A stretch of DNA of 64,000 nucleotides from an uncultured Pelagibacteraceae bacterium (GCA_902521075.1 CABYQM010000002.1:78414-142413); one strand, 5' to 3'; counted from the first letter of the stretch, positions 15,326 through 40,547 are shown. Notes: a model not told the origin generated them from the letters alone. Numbers and translations are program-made.

Positions 15326-15371
15326 TATCAGATTCCTACTAAATTTTAATTACTAACGAAACAAAATTCTA

Positions 15372-15575
15372 TTATTCATCATCTGCGTCACGCCAGCCCA
15401 TTCTGAACATTAAATAAGCGGCAACTACAACGGAAATTGTACCTACTACCATACCAATATTAATCCCAACTTCACTTCCCCAAAAATACCATCCAAGTTG
15501 AGTGGATGAGATTGTTGGAAAGCATAAAATAAACATTAGAATTGCGTACCTAATATACATTGGAGGTTTTTTCAT
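15372..15575 (-). CDS. Small membrane protein
   Basis: Start more likely at MKKPPMYIRYAILMFILCFPTISS (TAATG overlap with upstream ORF stop) than the track start at 15629; two hydrophobic segments. Confidence 0.6.
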   Translation of the reverse strand: MKKPPMYIRYAILMFILCFPTISSTQLGWYFWGSEVGINIGMVVGTISVVVAAYLMFRMGWRDADDE

Positions 15576-16036: not shown

Positions 16037-16102
16037 ATTTTAAATTTATCTTAAATTTAAAATGAAATAAAAGGTCTTAATATCACACTTAATAATTTGA
16101 TA

Positions 16103-16528: not shown

Positions 16529-16536
16529 AATTTAAT

Positions 16537-16986: not shown

Positions 16987-17353
16987 CTTTATTTTTTTCT
17001 TCCTTTTTACTTGCGATATTTGCTTTTAATTCGTGTGGCTCTAAAGGATCAAGGAAAGGATTTCGGTATAGTTTATCATGACTTTCAACTCCTATCTCTA
17101 TTGTGCAATCTGTTTTTGCTTTAGCAACACATAAAATAATATATCCATCATTTATTTGTCTATTATTTAAAGCAACTTGAGAACGTTGATCCACTTCCCC
17201 ATTAATCAGTTTAGCTGCACATGTAATACATCCTCCATACTGACATCCGTATGGAAGATCGACACCTTGATCTCTTAATTCATTTAATAAAGGTTTTTTT
17301 CCACTTACTTCGAATGCACTGTTATTTCTGTTTGAGATTGTAATTTTTGTCAT
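16973..17353 (-). CDS. 2Fe-2S ferredoxin-like protein
   Basis: PYGCQYGGCITCAAKLINGEVDQRSQ...YIILCVA; start at MTKITISNRNN gives ATGA overlap with upstream SBP56 gene. Confidence 0.88.
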   Translation of the reverse strand: MTKITISNRNNSAFEVSGKKPLLNELRDQGVDLPYGCQYGGCITCAAKLINGEVDQRSQVALNNRQINDGYIILCVAKAKTDCTIEIGVESHDKLYRNPFLDPLEPHELKANIASKKEEKNKDEPQ

Positions 17354-18702
17354 AGCCAGATGTCGCTTGTGCAATCTCCACCTGGATATCTACTTTCATG
17401 GCACCTACTAGGTCCATTTGGCTCTTTGCCAAAATCAACAATAAAATCTTTATTAATTTTCATTCCTCCATTTTCAACATCACAATCAATCATAATCATT
17501 GCTCCACCCTGTTTTCTAATTTCAGGATAAAATTGATTATCCCAAGTAGAAAATAATGATGTTGTTACATACATTCTTTTGCCATCTAAAGATAATTGAT
17601 ACATTTGAGGTCCACCAGCAATTTTAACACCATTTACTTCTGGAGCCTTTCCTAACAATCCACCCATCCAAACTTGACCAGTTAATTTTGGTTTATGCGG
17701 ATCTGAAATATCGTATTGCCTCATATCCCCATGAAGCCAATTATTTATATATAGATATTTATCATCCATTGAAACTAATATCGCTGACATAACCCCAGGT
17801 ACAGGGATTGGCCAGTCAGGATGTGGTTCATTTTCAACATCGATTATTTTTTCCCATTCCCATTTTCCCTCTTTTGATTTCCAAAAATGAATTACATTTG
17901 CACTTAGCGCTGCACCACAAAATCCATGACTACTGTCAGGATTATGCATAAATTTTACTTCTAATGGTATTAAACCATCCTCACCTAAATACATTGTTTG
18001 AACTGGCTCTTTTTTTTTAAAATCCCAAACATGAAGTCGTCTACCATATTTCAAATGACCAACTTCCTCTAAATCAAATCCAGGCATAAAAGTATTAGGG
18101 GCAGCCCATTCAGAACTAACCATCACATTATGTCTTGGTTGGTACCAGAAGTCATAACTAAAAGGTATGTCTCCCATTGAATTTTCCCATCTACCTACAA
18201 TTTCAAAATCTTTGTTTAAATGTAAATATCCTCCTGGAGCTTCTCCTCTTGCATCTCCTAGAAAAGAAATGATAATTTCAGAACCTAGGCAATGAACTGT
18301 ATGCGGTCCTGATAAATTAGTTTTTTTCTTTATTTCAGATCCATCTACTACTTTATGTATTTTTGGAGCTCTAGGATCGGATGCAGTATCAACAACATAA
18401 ATATTATTTGATCTAACACCTGGAACTAATAAATATTTTCTGCTCATTTTTAAGTCGCCATGACAAGAAGAACATGCATTCCATCCCATATGATGCAATT
18501 CATCACCAATACCTGGCATTTCAAGCCTATGAATTACTTTAGAATAAGTAGGGCTTTGAGGATCAACATCGACGGTTGCTAAGTAGTCTGGTTTTTGTAT
18601 TCCTGTCCCTGTGTAAATCGCTATAGTATATAAAAGCTTTTCTTTTGGTGCTTTTATTGCTTCTGCAGGACTAGCATATCCGGGACCACAACATCCATCC
18701 AT
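17350..18702 (-). CDS. mtoX: Selenium-binding protein 56 / methanethiol oxidase family
   Basis: MDGCCGPGYASPAEAIKAPKEKLLYT; ELHHMGWNACSSCHGD; WLHGDMRQYDISDP; family-wide motifs. Confidence 0.85.
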   Translation of the reverse strand: MDGCCGPGYASPAEAIKAPKEKLLYTIAIYTGTGIQKPDYLATVDVDPQSPTYSKVIHRLEMPGIGDELHHMGWNACSSCHGDLKMSRKYLLVPGVRSNNIYVVDTASDPRAPKIHKVVDGSEIKKKTNLSGPHTVHCLGSEIIISFLGDARGEAPGGYLHLNKDFEIVGRWENSMGDIPFSYDFWYQPRHNVMVSSEWAAPNTFMPGFDLEEVGHLKYGRRLHVWDFKKKEPVQTMYLGEDGLIPLEVKFMHNPDSSHGFCGAALSANVIHFWKSKEGKWEWEKIIDVENEPHPDWPIPVPGVMSAILVSMDDKYLYINNWLHGDMRQYDISDPHKPKLTGQVWMGGLLGKAPEVNGVKIAGGPQMYQLSLDGKRMYVTTSLFSTWDNQFYPEIRKQGGAMIMIDCDVENGGMKINKDFIVDFGKEPNGPSRCHESRYPGGDCTSDIWL

Positions 18703-18762
18703 GATTGATTTTCTCCTTTAATTACAACTTAATCTTTTTTTTAAGTGACTTCAACTTAATGG

Positions 18763-19536
18763 TTATTTGTTTTTCCAACTTGGATTTCTTTTTTCTATAA
18801 ATGCACTTATACCCTCTTTAGCATCATAAGATGACATATTAAGTGTCATCATCTTGCTTGTATAATCATAAGCTTTGTTAAGAGGCATTTCTAATTGTTT
18901 ATAAAAACCCTTTTTACCTATTTTGATAGTTAAATTTGATTTTGAAGATATTTTTTTTGCGATATCTAAAACTTTTTTATTTAAAGTTTTTGGACTGTAA
19001 TGATCATTAATTAATCCGATTTCCTTTGCATATTTTGCACTAATTGGATCACCGGTAAGTAGCATTTCCATCATTCTTTTTCTGCTAATTTTTCGGCTGA
19101 CAGCTACCATTGGTGTACTGCAAAATAATCCAATTTTTACTCCAGGTGTAGCAAACGTTGCTGAGTTCGTACTATATGCAAGATCACAACTGGCAGCTAA
19201 TTGACATCCTGCTGCATAAGCAGCACCATGAACTTTTGCTATTACTGGTTTGTTTCCTTCTACTATTTGCATCATTAATTTTGAACAAAGTTTAAAGAGT
19301 TTTAGATGATTAGATCTATTTTTTATACCCCTTACCTCTTTTAAGTTATGGCCTGCACTAAATCCTTTTCCAGCTCCCTCTAAAATAATGACCCTTGTTT
19401 CTTTATCATTATCTAATTTTTTGAATGCCTTTAATAAAGATGAAAGAGTTTTGTAGGATAATGAATTATAAGTTTTTGGATCATTAATTAAAACTCTTTT
19501 GACGCCTGGTGATAATTTATTTATTTTTACAGTCAC
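18763..19536 (-). CDS. Enoyl-CoA hydratase/isomerase family protein
   Basis: GKGFSAGHNLKEVRG; KPVIAKVHGAAYAAGCQLAASCDLAYSTNSATFATPGVKIGLF. Confidence 0.9.
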   Translation of the reverse strand: MTVKINKLSPGVKRVLINDPKTYNSLSYKTLSSLLKAFKKLDNDKETRVIILEGAGKGFSAGHNLKEVRGIKNRSNHLKLFKLCSKLMMQIVEGNKPVIAKVHGAAYAAGCQLAASCDLAYSTNSATFATPGVKIGLFCSTPMVAVSRKISRKRMMEMLLTGDPISAKYAKEIGLINDHYSPKTLNKKVLDIAKKISSKSNLTIKIGKKGFYKQLEMPLNKAYDYTSKMMTLNMSSYDAKEGISAFIEKRNPSWKNK

Positions 19537-19911
19537 TTATTTTAATTTACCTTCTTCTCTCATCTTAGCTCTAATTTTTGTTGCTGAAATTTTTTGAATT
19601 TCTTCAGGCAAAACTATTTCTTCAATTTTATATCCAACACCTCTTCCATAACAAATATTTGTAATATTAGGGACAAGCATAATTTTAAACCTGCCCTCAA
19701 ACTCTGGATTAAGTTTTTCCTCAATATTTTTTTTGACAGTTTCAAAATCAAATGGGTTATCATCAACACCTTGTACATCTCTAATTTGAATACATACTTG
19801 TCCAGTTTTTTTTATAATTTCCTTAAATAGAGTATGGTGACCATCATGAAACGGTTGCCATCTTCCTAACATTTGAGCTGTTGGTTTTTTATTATCCCAT
19901 TGATACGTCAT
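19537..19911 (-). CDS. Nucleotidyltransferase (cytidylyl/adenylyltransferase fold)
   Basis: MLGRWQPFHDGHHTLF and ISATKIRAKMREEG motifs; start reassigned to MTYQWDNKK (ATGA overlap with kinase gene). Confidence 0.75.
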   Translation of the reverse strand: MTYQWDNKKPTAQMLGRWQPFHDGHHTLFKEIIKKTGQVCIQIRDVQGVDDNPFDFETVKKNIEEKLNPEFEGRFKIMLVPNITNICYGRGVGYKIEEIVLPEEIQKISATKIRAKMREEGKLK

Positions 19912-20318
19912 TTGCTTATCTCCTTTAAAATCTTTGGTGCCCAAGACTTAGCATCTTGTGTGGTAACATGAAAATTATATTTTTCTGGTTTAATAAACAT
20001 TTTATTAGTGTCATCAAATCTACCTTCTTTTATTGTATCTACCCAAACTACATAATCTGCAGGAAATAAACTTCTTGCTTTTGGAGTCGGGCAAATAAAA
20101 TCTGCAATCACATAATTTCCTTCGTTTTTTAATTTTAATGCAAAGTCAGCCATTCTTTTTGCTTGTCTTGTTCTTCCCTCTTCTGAAAAATCCCAATCGT
20201 TTGCAGCTTTTCTTACTTCATCTGCATTTAATCTTTTTGCATTCAATAAAGGAGCAAGTTCATCAGCTAATGTAGTTTTTCCAGCACCTGGAAGTCCCAT
20301 GATTAATATAATTTTCAT
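19908..20318 (-). CDS. APS-kinase-like P-loop kinase
   Basis: MKIILIMGLPGAGKTTLADELAPLLNAKRLNADEVRKAANDWDFSEEGRTRQAKRM resembles CysC-type kinases. Confidence 0.75.
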   Translation of the reverse strand: MKIILIMGLPGAGKTTLADELAPLLNAKRLNADEVRKAANDWDFSEEGRTRQAKRMADFALKLKNEGNYVIADFICPTPKARSLFPADYVVWVDTIKEGRFDDTNKMFIKPEKYNFHVTTQDAKSWAPKILKEISK

Positions 20319-20333
20319 ATTTAGGTTTTAACT

Positions 20334-21509
20334 TTAAATTAAATTACCAGCAACCCACTTATGAAAATGATGTGTTGGATTGTCCATGTTTGGTGAAAAA
20401 TTACCACCATTATAAGCTGGAGAATTTCTTCCTATTTGCATACTTTGAATTATATCTACATCTTCTTTTTGAATATCTTCCCATTGTTTGTGATTTTTTT
20501 GTCTTAGAGATTTATATTTTGTTGAAGTTGCCGCCTCATCTCCTACATAATAAATTTCCATATGTTCTATTGTAAACTCATGATTGATTGGCTCTAACCA
20601 ATAAGCATAATAATGATCTTTGTGAATTCCCAACATTACGTTTGGGAATAACGCTACATACTCAGCTATATTTTCTTTTTCTTTAGGCCAATTAGGAAAG
20701 CAAGGAAACTTTTCTTTTCCTTCAAAACTTGGATTATAAACCACAGTTCCTTGTCCAGCGAAACGATTTGGCAGTCCCTGTATATGATAGTGATCTTCTA
20801 ACTTTGAATAAGAATTTAATCCTGGGTGAACCCAAGGCAAATGATAGCTTTCACAATAATTTTCAATTGCAAATTTCCAATTACATTTTGCATCTAATTT
20901 GAAATAACCATAGTCATTTGCATGATAAATTAATTCTCTATCTTTCAATGGCCAAAATTTTTCCCATCTTTGGCTTAAAGGACTAATGTAATCCTCAAAT
21001 GACATTTCATTGTTGTTAATATTAATCATAATTAGATCTAACCAAATATATGATCTTATCTCTTTTAAATTACTTTTTGATTTATCAAATCCAGGAGTTT
21101 GATGAATATTCATGCCACCTATATGAGGTGTAGCAATTAATTTTCCCTCTAAGTCATAAGACCATGAATGATATGAGCACCTCATAACATTTCTAATTTT
21201 GCCAGCTTCTTTTACTAATTTGACTCCTCTATGACTGCAAATATTATGAAAAACTTTTATTTCTTTATTTTTTGTTCTAACAATAAGTAAGGGTATTCCA
21301 AGTAAATCAATTGGTTTCACATCACCTTCATCTGGAATAGAACTTCCAACTCCAATGACGATCCACTTATCTTCAAATAATTTTTTTCTTTCAATTAAAG
21401 TATATTCTTTACTGATGTAACATTCATTTGGTAAACCATGAGCTTCGCTAATTGGTTTAGATACAATATCTAACTTTTGTTTATCTATAATATTGTAAAT
21501 TTCTGACAT
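20334..21509 (-). CDS. Rieske-type ring-hydroxylating/demethylating oxygenase alpha subunit (choline monooxygenase/GbcA-like)
   Basis: Rieske CSHRG...RCSYHSWSYD; mononuclear Fe motif NWKFAIENYCESYHLPWVHPGL. Confidence 0.88.
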   Translation of the reverse strand: MSEIYNIIDKQKLDIVSKPISEAHGLPNECYISKEYTLIERKKLFEDKWIVIGVGSSIPDEGDVKPIDLLGIPLLIVRTKNKEIKVFHNICSHRGVKLVKEAGKIRNVMRCSYHSWSYDLEGKLIATPHIGGMNIHQTPGFDKSKSNLKEIRSYIWLDLIMININNNEMSFEDYISPLSQRWEKFWPLKDRELIYHANDYGYFKLDAKCNWKFAIENYCESYHLPWVHPGLNSYSKLEDHYHIQGLPNRFAGQGTVVYNPSFEGKEKFPCFPNWPKEKENIAEYVALFPNVMLGIHKDHYYAYWLEPINHEFTIEHMEIYYVGDEAATSTKYKSLRQKNHKQWEDIQKEDVDIIQSMQIGRNSPAYNGGNFSPNMDNPTHHFHKWVAGNLI

Positions 21510-21512
21510 GGT

Positions 21513-22142
21513 TTATTTTATCACTTGATATAACCCTAACCAAGCATTTACGTCTTTGCTCGCAATGTAATCTGATTTAAAAAATTTTATTTCTTTCCAT
21601 TTATTTTGCTCTTTAAGTTGTTCAATTTTTTTATCAAAACCATATTCTTCATGTATTCCCTCATTAATAGTAAAACAGATAAATCCATCATTCTTTGTAA
21701 TCCTGATAAATTCTTCCAAAGCTGGTGGCTTTACATGTCCAAAAGTAAATGTACCAACACACATAACAGAGTCATATTCATCATCTTTTTTATTAATGGG
21801 TTGATTCAAGTCTACTTGTTCAAGCTTTTTATAAAGATCATTTGGTACTAATTCTAATAACTTTTTTGAAAGATCTGCCCCATAAAAATTTTTAAAACCA
21901 TATTTTTTTAATTCAACACCCACCAATCCAGTTCCACAACCAGCATCATAAATTTTTGCATCTTTGTTTTTTTGGAATTCTGAAAATACTTTTGTTGTTT
22001 CTTTTGGTCCTGTGTAATTCCAATCGACCATATCCTTATCATATTTATTACCATCTCCCCACTCATCATAATATTTCATTACTTCATCAGTGTCTTTTAG
22101 CTTATAGATGGGAATTTTGTTACCTACGTCTTTTTGAGCCAT
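21513..22142 (-). CDS. SAM-dependent methyltransferase
   Basis: KIYDAGCGTGLVGVELKKYGFKNFYGADLS. Confidence 0.85.
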   Translation of the reverse strand: MAQKDVGNKIPIYKLKDTDEVMKYYDEWGDGNKYDKDMVDWNYTGPKETTKVFSEFQKNKDAKIYDAGCGTGLVGVELKKYGFKNFYGADLSKKLLELVPNDLYKKLEQVDLNQPINKKDDEYDSVMCVGTFTFGHVKPPALEEFIRITKNDGFICFTINEGIHEEYGFDKKIEQLKEQNKWKEIKFFKSDYIASKDVNAWLGLYQVIK

Positions 22143-22150: not shown

Positions 22151-23113
22151 TTACTTCACTTTTAATAAAAAAACTCCAAAATAATTTTTTTTATCTGTAA
22201 AATATTTTAAGACTTTAAAGCCTGATTTATTAACTAATTTAACAAAGTTATTTTTTGAATATTTGTGAGAATTTTCAGTATGAATGCTTTCGTCTTTAAT
22301 AAATTTTATATTTTTTTTATTAATTTTTAACGTGAAATTTTTTTTTGAAATAAGATGCATTTCAATTCTATTTTTTTTTAAATTGTAAAATGCTTTATGA
22401 TCAAAATTCTTAGTTTGAAAATTTGAATTACAAATTTTGTTTACTACATTTAATATATTTTTATTAAATTTAGCTGTAACTCCCGATTTATCATTGTAAG
22501 CATTTTCAAGGGTCTTCTTATTTTTGATTAAATCAACCCCAATTACTAAATAAGAATTTTTGCCTATAATTTTTGAAAAATTTTTTAGTATTTTTTTTGC
22601 ATTTTTAGGTAAATAATTTCCTATGGTCGATCCTGGAAAAAAACTGACTATTTTTTTTTTATTTTTTAAAATTTTATTTAATCTATTTGTCTGACTAAAG
22701 TCTGCACATATTGCCGTTACTTTTAAATCTGAGAATTTTTTTGCTATTATTGATGCATTTTCAAACAAATATTCCTTGCTAATATCTATAGGAATGTATT
22801 CTTTAGGTTCACTTAATAATTTTATAAATTTATTAATTTTTTTATTCGAGCCACTACCAAATTCTACAATTGTTGAATTAATTGGTAATTTCTTTCTTAT
22901 TTCTTTTTCTAAGTTATCTAGTATTCCTAACTCTTTATTTGTTGGGTAATATTCTTTGAGGTTTGTAATTTTATTAAATAACTTCGAACCTTTTTCATCA
23001 TAAAAATATTTAGGTAGTAAATATTTTTGTTTTTTATTTAATAATCCTTGTAAGATTAATTTTTTATCATCTTGAATTTGATTGTTTATGTTTATTAATT
23101 TTAAATTAGTCAC
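22151..23113 (-). CDS. egtD: L-histidine N-alpha-methyltransferase (EgtD)
   Basis: YLLPKYFYDEKGSKLFNKITNLKEYYPTNKE; TIVEFGSGSNKK; FFPGSTIGNYLP. Confidence 0.88.
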   Translation of the reverse strand: MTNLKLININNQIQDDKKLILQGLLNKKQKYLLPKYFYDEKGSKLFNKITNLKEYYPTNKELGILDNLEKEIRKKLPINSTIVEFGSGSNKKINKFIKLLSEPKEYIPIDISKEYLFENASIIAKKFSDLKVTAICADFSQTNRLNKILKNKKKIVSFFPGSTIGNYLPKNAKKILKNFSKIIGKNSYLVIGVDLIKNKKTLENAYNDKSGVTAKFNKNILNVVNKICNSNFQTKNFDHKAFYNLKKNRIEMHLISKKNFTLKINKKNIKFIKDESIHTENSHKYSKNNFVKLVNKSGFKVLKYFTDKKNYFGVFLLKVK

Positions 23114-24330
23114 TAGATGTCGTCAGCTAGTCTGACACCACAAAACTGCCAAGTATCACTTGGGTAAAAGAAATTTCTATAAGATGCTCTGACATGATTA
23201 ATAGATGTAGAATGTGAGCCACCTTTTAAAACAAACTGATTACACATGAACTTATTATTATATTCTCCTAGATTTCCTTCATAAGGTTTGTATTTTTTGT
23301 AAGGTGTGTAGTTACTACTTGTCCAAGCCCATAAATTTCCATAAACATCATCTGCCTTTTCCTCTACTTCATGAAAAATTTTATTTTCTAAAAAATTACC
23401 TTTTTTTTCAGATTGTTTTAAAAAATACTCTAGTTCAAATTCAGTCGGTAATCTTTTGTTTTTGTATCTTGCAAAAGCATCTGCTTCATAGAAACTTATA
23501 TGAGAAACTGGCTTTTCATTATCAATTTTTTTTACACCGTTTAATGTAAAATAATTATTATTATCTATCCAATACATTGGTTTTTCTAATTTGTTATTAT
23601 TTACAAAATCCCATCCATCAGATAACCAATACTCGTGGTTTTTGTATCCTCCGTCATTAATAAATTCTTTCCACTCTCCATTAGTAACAAATGAATATAT
23701 TTTAAAAGGATCTAATTGTGTTTCTGATACTGGTAATTCGTTATCGTAACAAAAAATATCCTCGTTATTTCCGTATTTAAATTTTTTAGTAGTTTCTAGT
23801 GTCAATTCATTTTCTTCTTTTGCAGTTGGTTTTTCGTCGTTTGAATTATAAGTCGGCATCAATGGATTGTTGTAAAAAATATTTTTAATATCCATTAACA
23901 TTAATTCCTGATGCTGTTGTTCGTGATTTGAACCTAGTTCAACTAAAAATGATGTTCTGTTATTTTTTGTTCTTTTTAAAAAATCAATAATATTTTCAGT
24001 TACATAATGTCTATATTTTACAACATCTTTTAAGATGGGTCTATTTAGTGAACCTCTCTTATTTCGAGGATTGTACTCACCTACAGAATTATAATACGAA
24101 TTAAATATGTAATTATAATCTTTGTTAAAAGGTTTGTAACTTTCATCCAATTCTGACAAGATGAATTTTTCAAAGAACCATGTGGTGTGACCAAGATGCC
24201 ACTTAAGAGGACTAACATTTTTGCTGGGCTGTATGACCATATCCTCAGCCTCTAAATTCTCACACAGGGATAGAGTTTGTTGTCTTGTTTTGGAGAATAA
24301 TTCTGTGATTTGAGATAATTTATTTTCCAT
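23113..24330 (-). CDS. egtB: Ergothioneine biosynthesis sulfoxide synthase-like (EgtB)
   Basis: DinB-like LKWHLGHTTWFFE; NHEQQHQELMLMDIKN; C-terminal FGE-sulfatase domain VLKGGSHSTSINHVRASYRNFFYPSDTWQFCGVRLA. Confidence 0.88.
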   Translation of the reverse strand: MENKLSQITELFSKTRQQTLSLCENLEAEDMVIQPSKNVSPLKWHLGHTTWFFEKFILSELDESYKPFNKDYNYIFNSYYNSVGEYNPRNKRGSLNRPILKDVVKYRHYVTENIIDFLKRTKNNRTSFLVELGSNHEQQHQELMLMDIKNIFYNNPLMPTYNSNDEKPTAKEENELTLETTKKFKYGNNEDIFCYDNELPVSETQLDPFKIYSFVTNGEWKEFINDGGYKNHEYWLSDGWDFVNNNKLEKPMYWIDNNNYFTLNGVKKIDNEKPVSHISFYEADAFARYKNKRLPTEFELEYFLKQSEKKGNFLENKIFHEVEEKADDVYGNLWAWTSSNYTPYKKYKPYEGNLGEYNNKFMCNQFVLKGGSHSTSINHVRASYRNFFYPSDTWQFCGVRLADDI

Positions 24331-24434: not shown

Positions 24435-25163
24435 ATGAATTTTTCTTTAGAAATAGGTCCTAAAACTGATTTAAGCACGTTACCGAAGGTAAAAGATGTT
24501 TATGTTACAATGCTACCTGGGGGTGATTATAAAGAGACCGCTCAACAGTCTGGAGAGTTAGTTAAAGAGGGATTTAATCCAGTTCCTCACTTCCCAGCAA
24601 GGTCAATAAATGATGAAAATCAGCTGAAAGATTATGTTTCTAGATGTAAAGATTTGGGTGTTAAGCAGGTCTTGGTGATAGGTGGAAGTCGTGACCCGAT
24701 CGGAAAATTTGATAGCTCATATCAAATGCTAGAGACAGGGTTTTTTGATGGTATCAAGATTGGAATTGCTGGACATCCCGAGGGGAGTCCTGATATATCC
24801 GACTCTGATTTAGAAAAAGCTATGATAGATAAAAAGCCTTATGCTGATTATATAGTTACACAGTGGCTAATGGATACTCAGCCTATTATAGATTTTATCT
24901 CAAAACAAACAATACCAGTTCATGTTGGAATAACTGGGCCAATGAAAATATCTAGCTTAATTAAATTTGCTAATATTGTAGGGGCAAAAAATTCCATTAA
25001 CTTTCTTAAATCTAATTTTAGTAAGGCGTTAGATTTATTGAAACCTAAAGACCCTAATGATTTAATTGGGAAAGTTAAATCGCATACTGATTATTTCCAC
25101 ATTTATACATTCGGCGGCTTGAAGGAAACTAACAAGTGGTTGAAGGAGAATAACTATGTCTAA
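24435..25163 (+). CDS. Methylenetetrahydrofolate reductase-like protein (MetF family)
   Basis: YVTMLPGGDYKETAQQS; HFPARSI; VLVIGGSRDPIG; FFDGIKIGIAGHPEGSP; VTQWLMD. Confidence 0.82.
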   Translation: MNFSLEIGPKTDLSTLPKVKDVYVTMLPGGDYKETAQQSGELVKEGFNPVPHFPARSINDENQLKDYVSRCKDLGVKQVLVIGGSRDPIGKFDSSYQMLETGFFDGIKIGIAGHPEGSPDISDSDLEKAMIDKKPYADYIVTQWLMDTQPIIDFISKQTIPVHVGITGPMKISSLIKFANIVGAKNSINFLKSNFSKALDLLKPKDPNDLIGKVKSHTDYFHIYTFGGLKETNKWLKENNYV

Positions 25164-26511
25164 TGAATTTGACTATAGTAAACTAAGACATACAACATCA
25201 GTAGATCAGTCTGATAGAAAAGTACCATACAATTTAAGACAAAGCGGACCTACTAAAGTTGAGATGCTAATATCAACAAGAGTAAGGAAATCTCCATACT
25301 GGCATTTATCTATGAAAGCAGGATGTTGGAGAGCAACTGTTTATAACAGAATTTATCATCCAAGAGGTTATGTTAAACCTGAAGATGGTGGTGCAATGGT
25401 TGAGTACGAGGCAATTAAAAACCATGTAACAATGTGGAATGTTGCAGTTGAAAGACAAATACAAGTTAAAGGACCAGATGCAGAAAAATTTGTTGATTAT
25501 GTAATTACAAGAGATGCTACAAAAATTTCTCCAATGAGAGGAAGATATGTAATTTTGTGTAATGCATACGGAGGAGTATTAAATGATCCTATTCTTTTAA
25601 GAATATCTAAAGATGAATTTTGGTTCAGTTTATCAGATAGTGATATTGGATTGTATCTGCAAGGAGTAAATGCGGATGAAAGGTTTAATGTTCAAATTAA
25701 TGAAATAGATGCTTGTCCTGTACAAATTCAAGGTCCTAAAGCAAAAGCTTTAATGAAAGATCTTTGTGGAAGTGAAGTTGACATAGACAACATGCCTTTT
25801 TATGGATTGGCATCTGCAAAAGTTGGTGGAAGAAGTTGTATTATTTCTCAAACAGGTTTTTCTGGCGAGTCTGGATTTGAAATATATTTAAGAGAAGCAA
25901 CTTTATATGCCGAAGATATGTGGAATGCTGTTCTTGAAGCAGGTAAAAAACATAACTTAATGGTCATTGCTCCTGCTCACCACAGAAGGATACAAGCTGG
26001 AATTCTTTCATGGGGACAAGATATGGATCATGAACATAATCCATTTCAATGTAATCTTGGTTATCAAGTTTCTTTATCTGGCAAAGGTGAATGGAACAAA
26101 AAAGGTGATTATGTTGGAAAAAAAGCTCTCGAGAAAATGAAAGCTGATTTAAAAGCAGGTCATAAACCTTACAAACTTCAATTAGTTGGACTTGAATTAG
26201 GAGGAAAACCTATTGAAGAATATGCTCCAGATTTTTGGTTAATTTCAGAAAACGGCAGTGAGCCTGTGGGATTTATAACTTCTCCTTGGTATCACCCAGA
26301 AAAAGGGAAAAATATTGCTATGGGATACGTTCCATTTGATGGCACGCTAAATGCAAATGGTTTTCCAAGAGGTAAGGTTGGATCGAAATTTAAAGTCCAT
26401 CTACCCGAAAAATATTCTGATAAACCTGGAGAACCAGTCGATGCAGTTGTAGTTGATATTCCATTTACAGAATCTTACAACGCAAATACAAGAGAAGTAG
26501 TCAGTAAGTGA
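25156..26511 (+). CDS. GcvT/DmdA-superfamily aminomethyl/methyltransferase
   Basis: GcvT fold: NVAVERQIQVKGPDAEKFVDYVITRD, QTGFSGESGFEIYLRE; overlaps metF-like gene. Confidence 0.88.
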   Translation: MSNEFDYSKLRHTTSVDQSDRKVPYNLRQSGPTKVEMLISTRVRKSPYWHLSMKAGCWRATVYNRIYHPRGYVKPEDGGAMVEYEAIKNHVTMWNVAVERQIQVKGPDAEKFVDYVITRDATKISPMRGRYVILCNAYGGVLNDPILLRISKDEFWFSLSDSDIGLYLQGVNADERFNVQINEIDACPVQIQGPKAKALMKDLCGSEVDIDNMPFYGLASAKVGGRSCIISQTGFSGESGFEIYLREATLYAEDMWNAVLEAGKKHNLMVIAPAHHRRIQAGILSWGQDMDHEHNPFQCNLGYQVSLSGKGEWNKKGDYVGKKALEKMKADLKAGHKPYKLQLVGLELGGKPIEEYAPDFWLISENGSEPVGFITSPWYHPEKGKNIAMGYVPFDGTLNANGFPRGKVGSKFKVHLPEKYSDKPGEPVDAVVVDIPFTESYNANTREVVSK

Positions 26512-26657: not shown

Positions 26658-27202
26658 TGTTTGCTCAGTTTTTAGATATTGTTTTTAAATCTTTAAAGCT
26701 TGATAAAACTCTTTATAGAACTCCAAGATATTATGGAGAAGCTGGAATTTATTTTGCAATTCTAATTATGATTTTAGATGGGGTTGCTGGAGCAGTTGCG
26801 GCTAATACGATTGTAAAAACATCTGTTGGTATATCTGGTTTAACAGCATTATTAACTTGGTTGGTGTGGGCAATTTTTATATTTGTAATTGGAGTTAAAA
26901 TTTTTCCTGATAAAGATAGAAAAATTCCATTTAAAAGAGTTCTTATAGCCGTTGGGTACGCACACGCTCCAGGACTGATAAGATTTTTTGCTGTCACACC
27001 AGAATTAGTACTTTTAATTATTTTTCTTACTCAATTTTGGATTTTTGCTTCATTAATTATAGCAACAAGACATATTTTAAATTTAAAATCAAATCTAAAA
27101 GCATTTGGAATTGTATTTTTATCTTTTTTAATTATTTCTTTTTTGACAATTTCATTTGTAATGACAAAAATTAATTCATTACCTGTAAGTACAAATATTT
27201 AA
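26657..27202 (+). CDS. YIP1-family membrane protein
   Basis: Multiple TM segments; FKRVLIAVGYAHAPGLIRFF. Confidence 0.7.
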   Translation: MFAQFLDIVFKSLKLDKTLYRTPRYYGEAGIYFAILIMILDGVAGAVAANTIVKTSVGISGLTALLTWLVWAIFIFVIGVKIFPDKDRKIPFKRVLIAVGYAHAPGLIRFFAVTPELVLLIIFLTQFWIFASLIIATRHILNLKSNLKAFGIVFLSFLIISFLTISFVMTKINSLPVSTNI

Positions 27203-27366
27203 AGCGGAAATAAAGTTTTAGATGTTCTGCAGGAGTTACAAAGTTTATATCCTGTGAGTATTAAATTTTGAGTTACTGTCTCATCTTCTTTTTTACATTC
27301 ATCACAAATATCATTTAATTCATTATTATCTGATTTGTCTGATTTATATTCAAAGTTATCAGTCAT
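27199..27366 (-). CDS. 55-aa zinc-ribbon-like mini-protein
   Basis: MTDNFEYKSDKSDNNELNDICDECKKEDETVTQNLILTGYKLCNSCRTSKTLFPL*; CxxC-CxxC; start overlaps stop of the DUF3726-like gene (ATGACTGA). Confidence 0.7.
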   Translation of the reverse strand: MTDNFEYKSDKSDNNELNDICDECKKEDETVTQNLILTGYKLCNSCRTSKTLFPL

Positions 27367-27967
27367 TATCTGTTAATCCTGCGCCTGCAGTTTTTTGTTT
27401 TAACTCATCAGTTTCTTCTACAAATGTGTTTTCTGATAATTTTGTTAATTCTTTCCAATCTTCTTCAGAAAAATTATTCTTATTTTCTAAGAATTGAATT
27501 TTAATTACATCAGCTTTTTCTACAATCTCACTACTTAAGTAATTCGAATAAATTGATTGATTGAAATTTAATAAAAATTCTTTTTGATCTATCTTTAAAA
27601 AAATTCTCTTTCCCGTTATTTCCGAAGATCTGCTGACAAACGGCAAAAATATCAATGGGTAAGCCATTTTTTCAATTTCTATATCATTTAGTTCTTGGAT
27701 AGAGATTGATTGATCAAAAAAACTTAATCCAAGTTTAATCGGACAGTAAAAGTTTTGAGGTCTGTTGCTTTTTTTAAAAGATTGGCAATTTTCAAACTTC
27801 TCATTATTAAAAATCTTAAAATATTGGTTTATGTTTTTTATTCCTGGTAAACCAAATAACTCAAGTTGTTTAATGTTCTTTCCTATTTCTTCGGCAACAC
27901 CCCAAGAGAAACCTTTTGCTTTAGTTGAACGTTTAACAATTGTATCGATTTCACTATAACTTCTCAT
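27359..27967 (-). CDS. DUF3726-like protein
   Basis: MRSYSEIDTIVKRSTKAKGFSWGVAEEIGKNIKQLELFGLPG; family call from memory of family pattern. Confidence 0.6.
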   Translation of the reverse strand: MRSYSEIDTIVKRSTKAKGFSWGVAEEIGKNIKQLELFGLPGIKNINQYFKIFNNEKFENCQSFKKSNRPQNFYCPIKLGLSFFDQSISIQELNDIEIEKMAYPLIFLPFVSRSSEITGKRIFLKIDQKEFLLNFNQSIYSNYLSSEIVEKADVIKIQFLENKNNFSEEDWKELTKLSENTFVEETDELKQKTAGAGLTDND

Positions 27968-29628
27968 TAATTACTTTGGTTATATATCCAATATTGATTA
28001 AATGAATTAAGTTCATTTGGTAATGGAGCTCCTTGAAACATACAAATCCTTAACCATTTGTCAGATCTTGGATCAAACTTTACTGCCCCAAAAAAAGATA
28101 GTTTAAGTCTTAACATATCAATAGGAACTAATTTTGAGCCGATGGTGTTATCTTGAATTTCAGAATATGGATATTTCTCTGTTATAAACACTCTTCTTAC
28201 AATATGTCTTAAATCATTGTTCCGTAATAGAAAATTGCCAATCTTTAAGCTGTTTTTTAATGTAAAAATAGTTTCATAAAGTTTTTTTATATCTCTAGCA
28301 ATAGCTGTAGGCTGCTCAAGTTCTGAACCATTATCTTCAAAACGATCTCCAATTCTAGGTTCTTCTTTATTTTTTGAAATGAACCAAAATTTTTTATTAT
28401 TTTCATTTTTTGAAAAATCAATTTTTAAAATATCTGAATAATTTTTTTCAATTATTTCCCTTAGGTCATTTATAGTTCTATCTACAGGAATGTTAAAACT
28501 ACTATCCTCGTCTGAACTCATTTTAGAAATTAAAGGATCGGTTATTTCATTATATGGCTCCATCATTATAGAAACCAAATACTCAACTCCTTCTTCAGAT
28601 AAATTTTCCTCTGCCCAGTTATATAATTTATCAAATATATAAAAATTTGATTTATCAATATTATTTTTCAAATAATTAATTAAATTTTGTAAATCATTAA
28701 TTAAATTGTTTATTTTTTTCTTTTGGTATTCGCTATCAGTATTCCATGAAGTTACATTTTTTAAAGATTTTATTAAACAATTGTAAAAAATTTTAAACTC
28801 TTCTTCTGATACTTTTTCTATTTCTCTGATTTTTTTTAAAGCTGTCTCTTTAGCTAGAATCCAATTATTTAACAATGAAGGGTGGTTTACAATAAATGGC
28901 GCCATTCCCAATCCAGTTGAATTTCCAATTCCTAAATTTCTGCAAATATCCAAGTCTAATTCTACAGCGTCTTTAGGATTTTTATGTTTTGCAATATGAT
29001 TGACTTGATCGAAAGTGAATTGTCTTACAAGGTAGACTAACATCATTTCCAATCTAAAAGGACCATTTATTTCATCTCTATTTTTAATTCTAAACCTGTC
29101 TGCTAATCCAAATTTTCCTGAGCCATATACTGCGGTTGTTCTGTACAAATATCCAACTTTTGAAAGCTCATTAGTATTGGGCTGGATACCTTTTGATAAA
29201 CACTCGACTACGTAATTAAATGCTCTAACTGATCTATTTGCTCTTGAAAGAGTAAGTTCTTTATAAGAAAGTCTCCCTACTTCTTGCTTAGGGACATTTT
29301 GTGAAAGTCTATCAATATCGATCTTTGAAGGAATACCATCATACAAAGCAAATGCAGCATCCCATTTAGTTGCTATTACTCTATCAGATCTTTCCTCATC
29401 TTTAAGCTCATTGGCAAAACAAACTAGAGAATATGTTTTTTTTTCTTTTGAAAATGAATAAATAGCAACTCCAAATCCCCTATCATTCAAGTCGAACAAA
29501 TCTCTGTTATATTTCCAATCTTTGAACTCGTTTAAAAATGATCTTAGAAAAGATAATTTAGATTGATGAAACGATCCAAGCCTAGAAAGTTTCATTACAA
29601 TTTTAGGATCTCTGAGTGGAACTTGCAT
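27967..29628 (-). CDS. Uncharacterised 553-aa protein
   Basis: Single long ORF, TAATG overlaps on both sides; no recognisable catalytic motif. Confidence 0.85.
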   Translation of the reverse strand: MQVPLRDPKIVMKLSRLGSFHQSKLSFLRSFLNEFKDWKYNRDLFDLNDRGFGVAIYSFSKEKKTYSLVCFANELKDEERSDRVIATKWDAAFALYDGIPSKIDIDRLSQNVPKQEVGRLSYKELTLSRANRSVRAFNYVVECLSKGIQPNTNELSKVGYLYRTTAVYGSGKFGLADRFRIKNRDEINGPFRLEMMLVYLVRQFTFDQVNHIAKHKNPKDAVELDLDICRNLGIGNSTGLGMAPFIVNHPSLLNNWILAKETALKKIREIEKVSEEEFKIFYNCLIKSLKNVTSWNTDSEYQKKKINNLINDLQNLINYLKNNIDKSNFYIFDKLYNWAEENLSEEGVEYLVSIMMEPYNEITDPLISKMSSDEDSSFNIPVDRTINDLREIIEKNYSDILKIDFSKNENNKKFWFISKNKEEPRIGDRFEDNGSELEQPTAIARDIKKLYETIFTLKNSLKIGNFLLRNNDLRHIVRRVFITEKYPYSEIQDNTIGSKLVPIDMLRLKLSFFGAVKFDPRSDKWLRICMFQGAPLPNELNSFNQYWIYNQSN

Positions 29629-30596
29629 TAATTAATTCCTTTATAAAAATTAAACCAGTTATTGCCAAGTATCTTATTTATCTCTTCTTCGTAAAAACCT
29701 TTATTTTTTAGTTCTGTGTTTATATTATTAAATCCTCTTGCATCTAAAAACCAATCTGGTTGTTTTGGAAAACTAGGTTTATCTTTACTGCCTTCACCAA
29801 AATTTTTTGATTTTGACCATGTTCCATTTCTCATCCACTCAACTACGCTGTCTGGCTGGTTTAAACATAAGTCTGATCCTATTCCAACATTATCAATACC
29901 CATAATTTCAACTGTTCTTGCAACCATTTCACAAAAACTTTCTAATTTACAATTCGTTCCATCTTTTAAATGGTGAGCATACAATGATAAACCTAACATT
30001 CCTCCACTTGCAGATAAAACTTTTAATAATTCTGTAGATTTATTTCTTTTAGCTTCAAACCAAAAAGTTGGATTTGCATGAGTGATCGCAATTGGTTTTT
30101 GACTAATTTCAATTGCATCAAGTGTACTTTTTTCTGCTGAATGAGACATGTCAACAACGATACCTACTCTGTTCATTTCTTTAATAGCCTCTTTTCCAAA
30201 ATTAGTAACCCCACTATCATTTTTTTCATAACATCCAGTGGCTAATAATGATTGGTTGTTATAAGTTAATTGCATAAATCGACAACCTTGTGAGTGTACT
30301 TTTTCTATAAGGCCTATGTCATCTTCAATTGGTGAACAATTTTGAAATCCAAAAAAAATTGCAGTTTTGTTTTCTTCTTTTGCTTTTGTAATATCGTTGT
30401 AGTTATTTCCTAGAAATATAAGATCTTTATTTTCTTCGAAATGTTTATTCCACTCTTGTATTCTTTGTTGTAATTCATCATAGTCTTCATGATAAACTAA
30501 CGTTACGTGAACCGCATTTAATCCAGCTTTATTATTTATTTCAAAGATTTCTCTAGACCATTTACAATACTGAAGATTATCAATTCGATAATTCAT
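29628..30596 (-). CDS. Membrane dipeptidase-like metallohydrolase (peptidase M19)
   Basis: GCRFMQLTYNNQSLLATGCYE; GIVVDMSHSAEKSTLDAIEISQKPIAITHAN; VGIGSDL. Confidence 0.9.
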   Translation of the reverse strand: MNYRIDNLQYCKWSREIFEINNKAGLNAVHVTLVYHEDYDELQQRIQEWNKHFEENKDLIFLGNNYNDITKAKEENKTAIFFGFQNCSPIEDDIGLIEKVHSQGCRFMQLTYNNQSLLATGCYEKNDSGVTNFGKEAIKEMNRVGIVVDMSHSAEKSTLDAIEISQKPIAITHANPTFWFEAKRNKSTELLKVLSASGGMLGLSLYAHHLKDGTNCKLESFCEMVARTVEIMGIDNVGIGSDLCLNQPDSVVEWMRNGTWSKSKNFGEGSKDKPSFPKQPDWFLDARGFNNINTELKNKGFYEEEINKILGNNWFNFYKGIN

Positions 30597-35449: not shown

Positions 35450-36028
35450 TTATTCAGCTTTATAGCCAAATTCTAAACAAGCATCAGTTATTGAATGATA
35501 AAGAGATTCTCCAAAACTTCTTAAAGCAAATATTCTTACTTTTCTTGGATTTGAACTAATAAAATCAATAGTTATTGTGATTGCATGAAAAGCAGAATTA
35601 GAACATTTTCCTTCATCAAGACCATCTAAATTTAACGGACAACCCTTTTTCAATACTTCATCTACCAAAGAACCTTCTAATTCAAGTATTGTTCTTGAAT
35701 GAGATAGATCAGTTAATGCAAAATCATCATGACTTAGGTTTTCTAAAATAGATTTTTCTATTTCTTTATTCGTTGAAACGACCAACCAATTATCAGGTCC
35801 CATCCATAAAATTCTTGTATTAGTATTTGAAGATACCAAGAGTGTCTCAGGTAAATTTAAATTATCTATTTTTATTTTATCAATACTAATTGAAGATTTT
35901 TTATATTTAACAATTTGATAAATCAAAACATCCTTGATTTCTCTAATATTTATTAGCTCATCTTTACTATCGTGATTGCCAAACAATCCATGTTTATGAA
36001 TATTTTCTAGTGCAGAAACATTTTTCAT
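35450..36028 (-). CDS. soxG: Sarcosine oxidase gamma subunit-like (SoxG/MgdD)
   Basis: Position after SoxA; RILWMGPDNWLVVS; DLSHSRTILELEG. Confidence 0.85.
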   Translation of the reverse strand: MKNVSALENIHKHGLFGNHDSKDELINIREIKDVLIYQIVKYKKSSISIDKIKIDNLNLPETLLVSSNTNTRILWMGPDNWLVVSTNKEIEKSILENLSHDDFALTDLSHSRTILELEGSLVDEVLKKGCPLNLDGLDEGKCSNSAFHAITITIDFISSNPRKVRIFALRSFGESLYHSITDACLEFGYKAE

Positions 36029-39021
36029 GATCTAACTCTTTTTCCTTCAGGGTCAACATAATGTGAAGATATAACTTCTACTTCAATTGATTTATTTTTT
36101 AATGGTGATACCGCAAAAAACTTTTTACCTATCATATTTTTTCCATCTTTCATTATTGCCAGAGAAAATGGATTATTATTTTCTACACTCCAACAAGAAG
36201 AAGAAACGTGACCAAGTTTAGGGTTTGGTAATTTTGCATTCTGATCTTGGACGATATGAGATCCTTCGGGAATACTAGACTTTCTATCAATTGGAATAAG
36301 TCCAACAATTTTTTGTCTGCTCTCAACATTAAATGCTTCTCTCCCTAAAGAATTTTTGCCGATAAAATCTTTTTTCTTTGAAACTAATCCATTTAATGAA
36401 ACATCTGATGGGATTGTTCGACCATCTAATTCTGGCCCTGCAACGTGTCCCATTTCTATTCTTAATGTTGACAAAGCTTCAGTTCCATAAGGCTGATTTC
36501 CAAAATCTTTTCCTACTTCCATCATTTTCTCCCACATGAACATGCCATGATCTGATTTGACATTAATCTCATATGCAAGCTCACCAGAAAATGAAATTCT
36601 AAAAATTCTTGATGGAACACCAAAAAATTCTGCTTCTTTATAGCCCATAAAAGGCAAAGCTTCATTTGATACGTCTAAGTCCGGATATAATTTTGATAAC
36701 ATGTCTCTAGATTTAGGTCCAGCAATTGCAGCCCCTGCCCATTGCTCAGTTGTAGAGACAACATTTACATTTAATTCTGGCCAAACAATTTGAAGATAAT
36801 ATTCTAAGTGAGATAAAACATTTGCAGCTTGTGCAGTTGTTGTTGTCATATGATAATGATTTTCTGAAATTCTTGTTGTTGTTCCATCGTCCATGACAAT
36901 TCCATCTTCTCTAAGCATCAATCCATATCTTGCTTTTCCAACAGGTAATTTCATCCAAGCATTTGTATAAACTCTATTTAAAAATTCTGCTGCGTCTGGA
37001 CCTTTAATATCAATTTTTCCTAATGTAGTTACATCGCATATACCAACATTCTCTCTAACATTTTTTGCCTCTCTCTTTGAAGCTTCAAATAAAGTTTCAC
37101 TTCCTAGCTTATAATATCGAGGTCTTTTCCAAGCACCTGCATCAACAAATACAGCATTATTTTTCTCATGCCATTCATGCATTGGGGTTTTTCTAGTCGG
37201 CATATATTCCATACCTACTTCACGACCAACTATTGTCCCGATTGTAATTGGTGTGAAAGGTGGTCTAAATGTTGTGTGTCCCACTTCAGGAACTATTTTA
37301 TTTTCTATATTAGATACCAACTGAAGGCCATTTAAATTACTTGTACGGCCTTGATCTGTTGCCATTCCAAGAGTTGTGTATCTTTTGACATGCTCTATTG
37401 ATCTGTAGCCTTCACTTAATGCGATTTCTATATCAGAAACAGATACATCATTTTGAAAATCAACAAATCTTTTTGGATTTTCATTCTTAGGTAACGGCAT
37501 ACACCAAAATTTATCATGAGCTCCGTATTTCTTTTCATTTACATTTGGAATTGAGATTTCTGTTTTAGTCTCTGTAATTTTTGCGGAAAGATTTGAACCA
37601 TTTTCAAAACCATGTTTTAAACTTTCTTCTAATGTGAATGATCCATTTGCTGCGCCAACTGAGGTCTCATGTTGTTTTTTCTTATCTGGAATAAATGCAT
37701 CAATTTTTTCTTCATACTTAAGTTTATTTCCTGACTGTGATGCTAAATGTACAGATGGTGTCCAAAATCCAGACACACAAATACAATCACAATCTACAGT
37801 TTCTATTTTCTCAAAAGAATTTTTATCTTTATTCAGTTTGCCAATTTTTGCAGATTTAACTTTTTTGTAACCATTAGCAACAATAACACCGTGAGAAAAT
37901 CTTATATCAATTCCCTTTGATTTAGCTTCATCAATTAATTCTGATGAATGTTCTTCTCTTGTATCTAATATAATTGGTTCAACATTATTTTTTTTGAACT
38001 CTAAAGCTGTTTCATATGCACTATCGTTATTTGTGAATATTAAAGGTTTCTTTCCAACCAATACTCCATAGACTTTCATATATTCTTTTGCAGCTGCTGA
38101 TAAAAAAATTCCTGGAGTATCATTGTTGCCGAACACAATTGGTCTTTCAATTGAGCCAGTTGATAAAATTGTTTCTTTGGCTCTAATATACCAAAGTCTT
38201 TGTCTTGGGGTGAATTTTGATTTTTTCTCTAAATGATCACTAACTCTCTCAAACATTACCAGCATGTTATGATCATAATAACCAAAAACTTGAGATCTAT
38301 TTTTTACAGTGACATTGGGCATAGATTTTAATTCAGTAATTATTTTTTCTGCCCAATCTTTTCCTGATAAATTATCGATGCTTACGTCATCAGTTAAAAG
38401 TGTTCCTCCAAATCTTGGTTTATCCTCAGCTAAAATTACTTTTGCTCCATTTTTTGCAGCAGCATAAGCACTTGCTAATCCAGAGGGTCCAGATCCAGTA
38501 ACTAATAAATCGCAATACTCAAATTTATGTTCATATCTTTCTTTATCTTTTTCTATCGAAGCAACCCCTAATCCTGCGGCTTTTCTAATGAAAGGTTCGT
38601 AAATTTTATACCAGAAACTTTTAGGCCACATAAATGTTTTGTAATAAAACCCTGCAGGGAAAAACATTTTTAAAAAATTATTAATTGCACCAACATCAAA
38701 ATTAACTGATGGCCAACAATTTTGGCTTGTTGCGGACAAACCTTCAACGAGTTCCATTTCTGTTGCATTAACATTTGGCTCTGAATGACCATTGAATTCT
38801 ACTTGAAGCTTTGCGTTTGGTTCTTCTACTCCTGCTCCAAAAAAACCTCTTGGTCTATGATATTTAAAACTTCTACCAACTAAATGTATTCCATTTGCAA
38901 TCAAAGCAGATGCAATTGTATCTCCCTCATATCCAAATAATTTTTTTCCGTTAAAAGTAAAAGATATTTTTTTGTCTCGATTAATTAATCCCTCTTTATT
39001 TAATCTAAATGGTTGGCTCAT
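36025..39021 (-). CDS. soxA: Sarcosine oxidase alpha subunit-like (SoxA/MgdC), C-terminal GcvT domain
   Basis: 998 aa; FGYEGDTIASALIANGIHLVGRSFKYHRPRGFF; LLVTGSGPSGLASAYAAAKNGAKVILAED; GcvT-like C-terminus. Confidence 0.93.
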   Translation of the reverse strand: MSQPFRLNKEGLINRDKKISFTFNGKKLFGYEGDTIASALIANGIHLVGRSFKYHRPRGFFGAGVEEPNAKLQVEFNGHSEPNVNATEMELVEGLSATSQNCWPSVNFDVGAINNFLKMFFPAGFYYKTFMWPKSFWYKIYEPFIRKAAGLGVASIEKDKERYEHKFEYCDLLVTGSGPSGLASAYAAAKNGAKVILAEDKPRFGGTLLTDDVSIDNLSGKDWAEKIITELKSMPNVTVKNRSQVFGYYDHNMLVMFERVSDHLEKKSKFTPRQRLWYIRAKETILSTGSIERPIVFGNNDTPGIFLSAAAKEYMKVYGVLVGKKPLIFTNNDSAYETALEFKKNNVEPIILDTREEHSSELIDEAKSKGIDIRFSHGVIVANGYKKVKSAKIGKLNKDKNSFEKIETVDCDCICVSGFWTPSVHLASQSGNKLKYEEKIDAFIPDKKKQHETSVGAANGSFTLEESLKHGFENGSNLSAKITETKTEISIPNVNEKKYGAHDKFWCMPLPKNENPKRFVDFQNDVSVSDIEIALSEGYRSIEHVKRYTTLGMATDQGRTSNLNGLQLVSNIENKIVPEVGHTTFRPPFTPITIGTIVGREVGMEYMPTRKTPMHEWHEKNNAVFVDAGAWKRPRYYKLGSETLFEASKREAKNVRENVGICDVTTLGKIDIKGPDAAEFLNRVYTNAWMKLPVGKARYGLMLREDGIVMDDGTTTRISENHYHMTTTTAQAANVLSHLEYYLQIVWPELNVNVVSTTEQWAGAAIAGPKSRDMLSKLYPDLDVSNEALPFMGYKEAEFFGVPSRIFRISFSGELAYEINVKSDHGMFMWEKMMEVGKDFGNQPYGTEALSTLRIEMGHVAGPELDGRTIPSDVSLNGLVSKKKDFIGKNSLGREAFNVESRQKIVGLIPIDRKSSIPEGSHIVQDQNAKLPNPKLGHVSSSCWSVENNNPFSLAIMKDGKNMIGKKFFAVSPLKNKSIEVEVISSHYVDPEGKRVRS

Positions 39022-39287
39022 CTTATTTCTTCTGTGACTTTTGCTGTTTGGAAAATTTCATGTGTAGCGGTGTCTCTTTGCACCTTAATCCATTGTCTAC
39101 ATCCTGCTATATGTTGCCATAACTCTATATGTTTGCCTCTTGGACTTTTTCTCATATAAACAAAATTATCCCAATCTTCACTTGGTACTTCTTCATTTAT
39201 ATTAGGTCTTTTTACAGTTGCATCACCTCCATATGAAAATTCTTTTTGTGCTCTTAAACCGCAATAAGGACATTTGATGTATAACAT
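39018..39287 (-). CDS. soxD: Sarcosine oxidase delta subunit-like (SoxD/MgdB)
   Basis: IKCPYCGLRAQKEFSYGGDATVKRP; GKHIELWQHIAGCRQWIKVQRDTATHEI. Confidence 0.93.
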   Translation of the reverse strand: MLYIKCPYCGLRAQKEFSYGGDATVKRPNINEEVPSEDWDNFVYMRKSPRGKHIELWQHIAGCRQWIKVQRDTATHEIFQTAKVTEEIR

Positions 39288-39290
39288 TTT

Positions 39291-40547
39291 TTAACCAATC
39301 CAGGTTTTAGTTCCTAAACCTTTTTCATCTAGAAGATGACCTGTAGAAAATCTATTTAATCTTAATTCTGAATTTAATTCATGAACTTTATCTTGCGCAA
39401 TTGTGTGTGCAAATGTCCAACCTGAAACAGGAGTTGATTTAAAACCTCCATAACACCATCCACAATTTAAATATAAACCTTCAATATGAGTTTTATCAAT
39501 TATTGGAGAACCATCCATAGACATATCCATGATCCCTCCCCATGTCCTTAACATTTTTAATCTACTTAAAAATGGAAACAAAGCTAAGCCACCTGTCAAG
39601 ACATGTTGTATAGTTGGCAAGTTACCTCTTTGAGCATAACTATTATATCCATCAAGATCACCACCCATTACCATCTCACCTTTATCTGATTGACTTATAT
39701 AAAAGTGGCCTGCACCAAAAGTTACTACTCCGTCTAATAATGGTTTTACAGGTTCTGAAACACAAGCTTGTAGTACGTGAGTTTCTATTGGCAGTGTCAT
39801 ATTTAATTTTTCAGCTAATATATTTGTGCTACCTGCAACACATAATCCAACTTTTTTTGCTTTAATATCTCCTCTTGAAGTTCTAATTCCTTTTATCTTT
39901 CCATTAACAACATCAAAACCAGTGACCTCACAATGTTGAATTATATCTACGCCCATATCATCTGCTTGACGCGCATAACCCCAAGCAACAGCGTCATGTC
40001 TTGCGGTACCAGCGCTTGGTTGCATTAAGCCTCCAAAAATTGGGAAACGTACTTCATCACTAAAGTCAGCCATTGGAATTAATTTTTTAACTTCGTCTCT
40101 ATCCAATAACTTTGCATCTATTCCATTTAATCTCATAGAGTTTCCTCTACGAGCATATGCATTCATTTGAGCATCAGAGTGGGCTAAGTTTATTATTCCC
40201 CTTGGAGAAAACATCACATTAAAGTTCAGTTCTTGACTTAAGTTTCTCCATAAATCCATTCCAAATTCATTAAATCTTGCATTAGCATCGTACATAAAAT
40301 TTGATCTTATGATCGTTGTATTTCGACCAACATTTCCACCACCAATCCAGCCTTTCTCAATGATAGCTACATTTCTAATATTATGTTCTTTTGCTAAATA
40401 ATATGCAGTAGCAAGACCGTGTCCTCCACCTCCGATGATGACTACATCATATTCACTTTTTGGAGTTGGATCTTTCCAAGCAACTTCCCAATTTTGGTGA
40501 TTGGAGAAAGCGTTTTTGATTAGACTAAATACTGAATATTTCTGCAT
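39291..40547 (-). CDS. soxB: Sarcosine oxidase beta subunit-like (SoxB/MgdA)
   Basis: YDVVIIGGGGHGLATAYYLAKEHNIRNVAIIEKGWIGGGNVGRNTTIIRSNF. Confidence 0.93.
   Translation of the reverse strand: MQKYSVFSLIKNAFSNHQNWEVAWKDPTPKSEYDVVIIGGGGHGLATAYYLAKEHNIRNVAIIEKGWIGGGNVGRNTTIIRSNFMYDANARFNEFGMDLWRNLSQELNFNVMFSPRGIINLAHSDAQMNAYARRGNSMRLNGIDAKLLDRDEVKKLIPMADFSDEVRFPIFGGLMQPSAGTARHDAVAWGYARQADDMGVDIIQHCEVTGFDVVNGKIKGIRTSRGDIKAKKVGLCVAGSTNILAEKLNMTLPIETHVLQACVSEPVKPLLDGVVTFGAGHFYISQSDKGEMVMGGDLDGYNSYAQRGNLPTIQHVLTGGLALFPFLSRLKMLRTWGGIMDMSMDGSPIIDKTHIEGLYLNCGWCYGGFKSTPVSGWTFAHTIAQDKVHELNSELRLNRFSTGHLLDEKGLGTKTWIG

Follow-up and report, generated by a model that had tools for sequence, protein, structure and literature searches.

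A conserved gene unit around an unclassified arginine-rich protein in a Pelagibacteraceae genome: a candidate module for catabolism of an N-methylated heterocyclic betaine

A 64,000 nt stretch of the genome of an uncultured Pelagibacteraceae bacterium (GCA_902521075.1, CABYQM010000002.1:78414-142413; hereafter the window) carries four consecutive genes that specify an M19-fold protein, a 553-amino-acid protein of no assigned family (U553), a DUF3726 protein and a cysteine-containing mini-protein (Table 1). A first-pass annotation, made from the sequence alone, had described them as four overlapping minus-strand open reading frames (ORFs), and both their coordinates and their overlaps were borne out by the window sequence, with one-base TAATG junctions at 29628 and 27967, and eight bases (27359-27366) shared by the DUF3726 and mini-protein ORFs. 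A scan for promoters and terminators gave a signal no greater than in shuffled sequence. Only the M19, U553 and DUF3726 genes and a SAR11-specific zinc-ribbon protein are clustered in the window, and the complete set, with a regulator, an aldehyde dehydrogenase (ALDH), an Ldh2-type dehydrogenase and a transporter, was not found there, the other genes being absent or distant.

Table 1. Genes of the U553 cluster and of the nearby Sox/Mgd-type operon (positions counted from the first base of the window).
Feature	Position	Strand	Remarks
M19-fold amidohydrolase	29628-30596	minus	322 aa; PF01244; divergent clade near PDB 2i5g
U553, unclassified Arg-rich protein	27967-29628	minus	553 aa; no family match
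DUF3726 protein	27359-27967	minus	202 aa; PF12525
CxxC...CxxC zinc-ribbon-like mini-protein	27199-27366	minus	55 aa
SoxB/MgdA-like subunit, candidate N-methylglutamate dehydrogenase	39291-40547	minus	TIGR01373, 666 bits, above cut-off
SoxD/MgdB-like delta subunit	39018-39287	minus	89 aa; matched delta subunit of L181
SoxA/MgdC-like alpha subunit, candidate N-methylglutamate dehydrogenase	36025-39021	minus	998 aa; TIGR01372, 1309.7 bits
SoxG/MgdD-like gamma subunit	35450-36028	minus	192 aa; by position only, as in L179/L181

U553 gave no match in Pfam, NCBIfam or PDB, either as a single sequence or as a 32-sequence profile, and remains unclassified, as the first-pass annotation had it; some low-scoring PDB matches were rejected as coiled-coil or helical chance matches. 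Its AlphaFold model, built from SAR11 sequences only, had a predicted local distance difference test score (pLDDT) of 61 and a predicted template modelling score of 0.40, and Foldseek matches to it were not meaningful. Across subfamilies that diverge down to about 22–30% identity, 36 positions are invariant, 11 of them Arg. Homologues occur in 53 of 385 evenly sampled alphaproteobacterial genomes, in other Proteobacteria, and on many plasmids (Phaeobacter, Sinorhizobium, Aminobacter and others, two Vibrio records included), while the viral contigs searched contained none. At 55 of the 58 U553 loci examined, the gene immediately downstream of U553 is DUF3726, and its start codon overlaps the U553 stop codon in 38 of these 55, so the coupling of the genes is not due to chance. 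The presence of the two genes also agrees in 40 of 41 SAR11-order genomes, the exception (G008) having a partial U553. U553 and DUF3726, usually with the M19 gene, form a conserved unit in SAR11, other alphaproteobacteria, some other Proteobacteria and rhizobial plasmids; the lack of a conserved neighbourhood outside this genome, which had been named in advance as fatal to the idea of a functional cluster, is decisively not what was found. On NC_018291 and related Phaeobacter inhibens plasmids there are two U553-matching places on one plasmid, one of which is closer to the Rhodobacteraceae M382 type; in P. inhibens DSM 17395, both are on the 262-kb plasmid.

The ORF for the mini-protein, reported in the first-pass annotation as missed by the ORF track, is a real gene. 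It was found in 78 of 80 SAR11 loci, the ratio of nonsynonymous to synonymous substitutions is mostly 0.07–0.3 (0.47 in one pair), and among 46 distinct variants the four cysteines (C-x2-C...C-x2-C) are present in every one displayed. Searches of other neighbourhoods gave strong matches in three SAR11 ones only, and a place for this protein in the general module was ruled out, as it is seen in SAR11 only.

The M19 protein belongs to its family without ambiguity (PF01244, E = 6.1e-71), and the nearest PDB entry, 2i5g, is an uncharacterised amidohydrolase (E = 9e-58). It shares with the M19 membrane (renal) dipeptidase the TIM-barrel family, by sequence, and the second-site histidines; the second-site residues His152, His173 and Asp242 are retained in 52/52 homologues. 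It differs in the first metal site and the bridging glutamate: the N-terminal His-x-Asp is gone, residues 1-29 being devoid of histidine, and Gln85, invariant in the 52 homologues, stands where human renal dipeptidase has the bridging Glu. Judged from these residues, the binuclear zinc ligands of the renal enzyme are lost. The first-pass annotation had proposed the processing of peptides, beta-lactams or peptide conjugates around a true M19 dipeptidase, and despite the clear fold this now appears very improbable, given the missing ligands and the neighbourhoods examined, which show no peptide transporter or peptide ligase. The genes that do occur there, namely betaine-type transporters, ALDH, imine-reductase-like Ldh2 and sarcosine-oxidase-like genes, also speak against a peptide-conjugate substrate, although the broader idea of a conserved small-molecule pathway stands. 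The M19-fold protein is proposed instead to be the putative N-formyl or amide hydrolase of such a pathway.

The DUF3726 protein matches PF12525 well above the curated cut-off (E = 5.6e-18, 65 bits against 22.1), and a profile search of PDB with it returned no match. Its AlphaFold2 model (pLDDT 87) was compared by Foldseek, and the best 16 matches were all Ldh2-type dehydrogenases, individually weak (E 0.006–0.07, template modelling scores 0.37–0.50); an hhalign comparison of its N-terminal part with Ldh2 was also weak (E = 4e-4, probability 36%). The similar predicted fold and N-terminal helices weakly suggest that the protein is shortened and remotely related to the Ldh2 fold, but at about 200 amino acids it is missing most of the reductase sequence, and it has a conserved C-terminal tail of its own. 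No part of the protein is better conserved than this tail (SRxxGAGAGxxDND, with GAG in 51 of 55), but the monomer model shows it as disordered, and it may therefore serve to bind a partner.

Outside SAR11, the common gene order is LysR, then ALDH-M19-(BCCT)-U553-DUF3726-Ldh2, followed by BCCT or ProXWV transporter genes, and Shinella retains part of the LysR-ALDH-M19-U553-DUF3726-Ldh2 order. The curated models nearest to the clustered ALDH are 2,5-dioxovalerate and alpha-ketoglutaric semialdehyde dehydrogenase (both below cut-off), a kinship that points to a C5 semialdehyde, while the clustered Ldh2 is a close relative of delta1-piperideine-2-carboxylate reductase DpkA, its nearest solved structure (E = 3e-55), and this points to an imine reductase. 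Clusters of the Vibrio/Caballeronia type have RidA and no Ldh2; the two occur together in 0 of 58 loci, a count that does not reach significance by itself. The SAR11 core is found either on its own or with Sox/Mgd-like, ALDH, Ldh2 and Pot genes in its vicinity. Strict co-occurrence of Ldh2 with U553 in SAR11 was considered and ruled out, several genomes with U553 having no Ldh2.

In the window, a SoxB-D-A-G-like operon (35450-40547), in which the SoxG-like gene overlaps the SoxA-like gene, lies 5–10 kb from the cluster, its SoxB-like gene being about 9 kb from the M19 gene, and a SoxB-like gene stays near the cluster in other SAR11. Elsewhere, a sarcosine-oxidase-like operon with a GlxA/AraC regulator adjoins the module in Phaeobacter porticola and in 'Roseateles' XES5, the latter additionally with PurU and FolD. 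SoxA-type genes are present in 50 of 53 genomes with U553 and in 99 of 332 without it, and at least two copies in 46 of 53 and 60 of 332, respectively; these counts treat related genomes as independent, and genome size may confound them. Sarcosine oxidase (Sox) and N-methylglutamate dehydrogenase (Mgd) types were told apart by tree only. In the tree, all SoxA copies near U553 outside SAR11, along with the second copies of six other genomes with U553, form one clade (100/98), separate from the remaining copies; one genome without U553 also has a member in it. The association with Mgd expected of a homarine operon was found, as co-occurrence of Sox/Mgd-type genes, adjacency in several lineages and a single clade outside SAR11.

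In view of how the genes are coupled, conserved and surrounded, of the lost dipeptidase metal site and of the Sox/Mgd-type association, the four genes are best read as the SAR11 form of a widespread module that breaks down an N-methylated heterocyclic betaine, with homarine (N-methylpicolinate) as the most probable substrate. We give this reading a probability of about two in three; the substrate and the reactions are deduced from gene content. Conversion of homarine (C7H7NO2) to N-methylglutamate (C6H11NO4) requires the loss of one ring carbon, and the atoms balance if homarine + [O] + H2O yields the semialdehyde named below, and if ALDH oxidation, loss of the formyl group and reduction of the imine then lead to N-methylglutamate and formate. 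In such a route, U553 and DUF3726 would dearomatise homarine and open the C5-C6 bond to give N-formyl-N-methyl-dehydroglutamate semialdehyde, and ALDH would oxidise this to the 5-acid. The M19-fold hydrolase may then release formate from the N-formyl group, and the remaining 2-(methylimino)glutarate would be converted to N-methylglutamate by the Ldh2/DpkA-like reductase; in Vibrio-type clusters, RidA would hydrolyse the imine instead. Mgd would finally yield glutamate and a C1-tetrahydrofolate unit, by which the carbon and nitrogen of homarine would become usable by the cell. Ring opening is assigned to U553 and DUF3726 by composition, since it is the only step without an owner and they are the only proteins without a step.

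A parallel exists in the degradation of trigonelline (tgnABCDE), where opening of an N-methylpyridinium carboxylate ring is followed by an aldehyde dehydrogenase and then by amide hydrolysis, reportedly described by Perchat et al. in 2018. The proposed homarine route is formally parallel, but the known trigonelline route begins with the TgnA/TgnB oxygenase system (PMC8269262), whose place in the present module is occupied by U553 and DUF3726, and action of TgnA/TgnB on homarine has been judged unlikely (PMC8269262). No relatives of TgnA/TgnB were seen among the U553 matches or the named neighbourhood genes (no genome-wide search was made), which also counts against trigonelline as substrate of the module. 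That the same architecture serves another N-methylated or quaternary amine, such as stachydrine/hydroxyproline betaine, trigonelline, or a polyamine-derived or other betaine, is rather unlikely: transporters of the BCCT, ProXWV and Pot types lack specificity for one substrate, and growth of R. pomeroyi on homarine is poorer than on trigonelline (PMC8269262), but a C5 semialdehyde dehydrogenase-like ALDH, an imine reductase and Mgd together fit N-methylglutamate as product. R. pomeroyi was not among the Ruegeria matches to U553, the search having covered only its megaplasmid. Divergent clusters of the S. meliloti pSymB type, which also speak for other substrates, use Pot transporters, an aminotransferase and RidA, and the enzyme pair would therefore act on more than one compound. 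This divergent subfamily (about 28–30% identity) comprises L186 (S. meliloti pSymB, 9226-20746), L187, L156 and L216, and has the order IclR - U553 - DUF3726-like - M19 - Pot-type ABC transporter with no ALDH or Ldh2; the aminotransferase (class III) and RidA are those of L186.

Several observations weigh against the homarine reading. Neither a cofactor motif nor a confident fold could be recognised in U553. A single Ldh2 is present in the window genome, and it is distant from the clustered type; the ALDHs of this genome are 30–32% identical. Several near-complete SAR11-order genomes have U553 but no Ldh2, so the later steps would there differ or be unlinked. The SoxA copies near U553 in SAR11 group as a clade of their own, of uncertain position in the tree, and the SoxA-like neighbours of U553 could be sarcosine oxidase.

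The missing cofactor motif would also suit U553 and DUF3726 as a non-catalytic scaffold or regulator for the M19, ALDH and Ldh2 enzymes, in which case the ring would be the target of another oxygenase, specified at a different place in the genome. A Rieske protein could be one; genes for such proteins lie near some clusters, and the window has one (20334-21509). We regard the scaffold reading as improbable, because Rieske genes are close by only sporadically, at a few of the 58 loci, no pair is as constant as U553-DUF3726, and the invariant polar residues of U553 are densely set, as is typical of an active site. U553 and DUF3726 could together form an enzyme of a new kind that opens pyridinium rings and occurs in SAR11, in which an Arg-rich catalytic protein is joined by a small subunit that derives from the Ldh2 fold and reaches into its partner with the C-terminal tail; such an enzyme would be unrelated to the flavin, Rieske and P450 oxygenases. 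We put this forward tentatively, at somewhat less than even odds.

Homarine is an abundant nitrogen compound from marine phytoplankton. If SAR11 degrades it by means of these genes, the most abundant heterotrophs of the ocean would be a direct sink for it, DUF3726 and U553 would be simple markers of homarine degradation in metagenomes, and U553 would represent an unrecognised enzyme family that opens an aromatic N-heterocycle. In a North Pacific survey of particles, no other measured metabolite was as abundant, homarine making up as much as 3% of particulate carbon (PMC8269262); homarine concentrations were later revised downward (PMC10134881).

The module consists of five enzymes and a LysR regulator, with Sox/Mgd-type genes. 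A homarine operon of five genes and a regulator, homABCDER, that feeds Mgd was reportedly described by Ferrer-Gonzalez et al. (Nat Microbiol, 2026), and the two counts, compared by number only, are alike. The SAR11 locus differs in having no clustered ALDH, Ldh2, LysR or transporter and in adding the 55-amino-acid zinc-ribbon protein. Our literature search returned nothing on DUF3726 or homABCDER. One paper cites a homarine pathway of 2026 and states that Mgd participates in homarine catabolism (PMC13390433), so the suggestion of an undescribed system is doubtful. The homarine pathway has probably been described already, with the window locus a reduced SAR11 member; of interest beyond it remain this reduced form, the zinc-ribbon protein, the DUF3726-Ldh2 fold kinship and U553.

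The window has other genes of note. On the plus strand (24435-26511), an MTHFR-like gene overlaps a GcvT/DmdA-fold gene, and the pair stays beside the U553 cluster in several SAR11 genomes; since the latter gene scores 237 bits against a cut-off of 410 for the dimethylsulfoniopropionate (DMSP) demethylase, it is likely another folate-dependent demethylase. Adjacent EgtD- and EgtB-like genes (minus strand, 22151-24330), by sequence reading alone, point to the synthesis of ergothioneine or a related thiohistidine. The Rieske-type gene mentioned above (minus strand) specifies an oxygenase alpha subunit and is adjoined by a methyltransferase-like gene (21513-22142). From 1417 to 63947 the window is rich in methylated-amine genes, with several GcvT-domain flavin adenine dinucleotide (FAD) oxidoreductases and with betaine and sugar ABC transporters, and a GlnA-like gene lies at 62478-63947.

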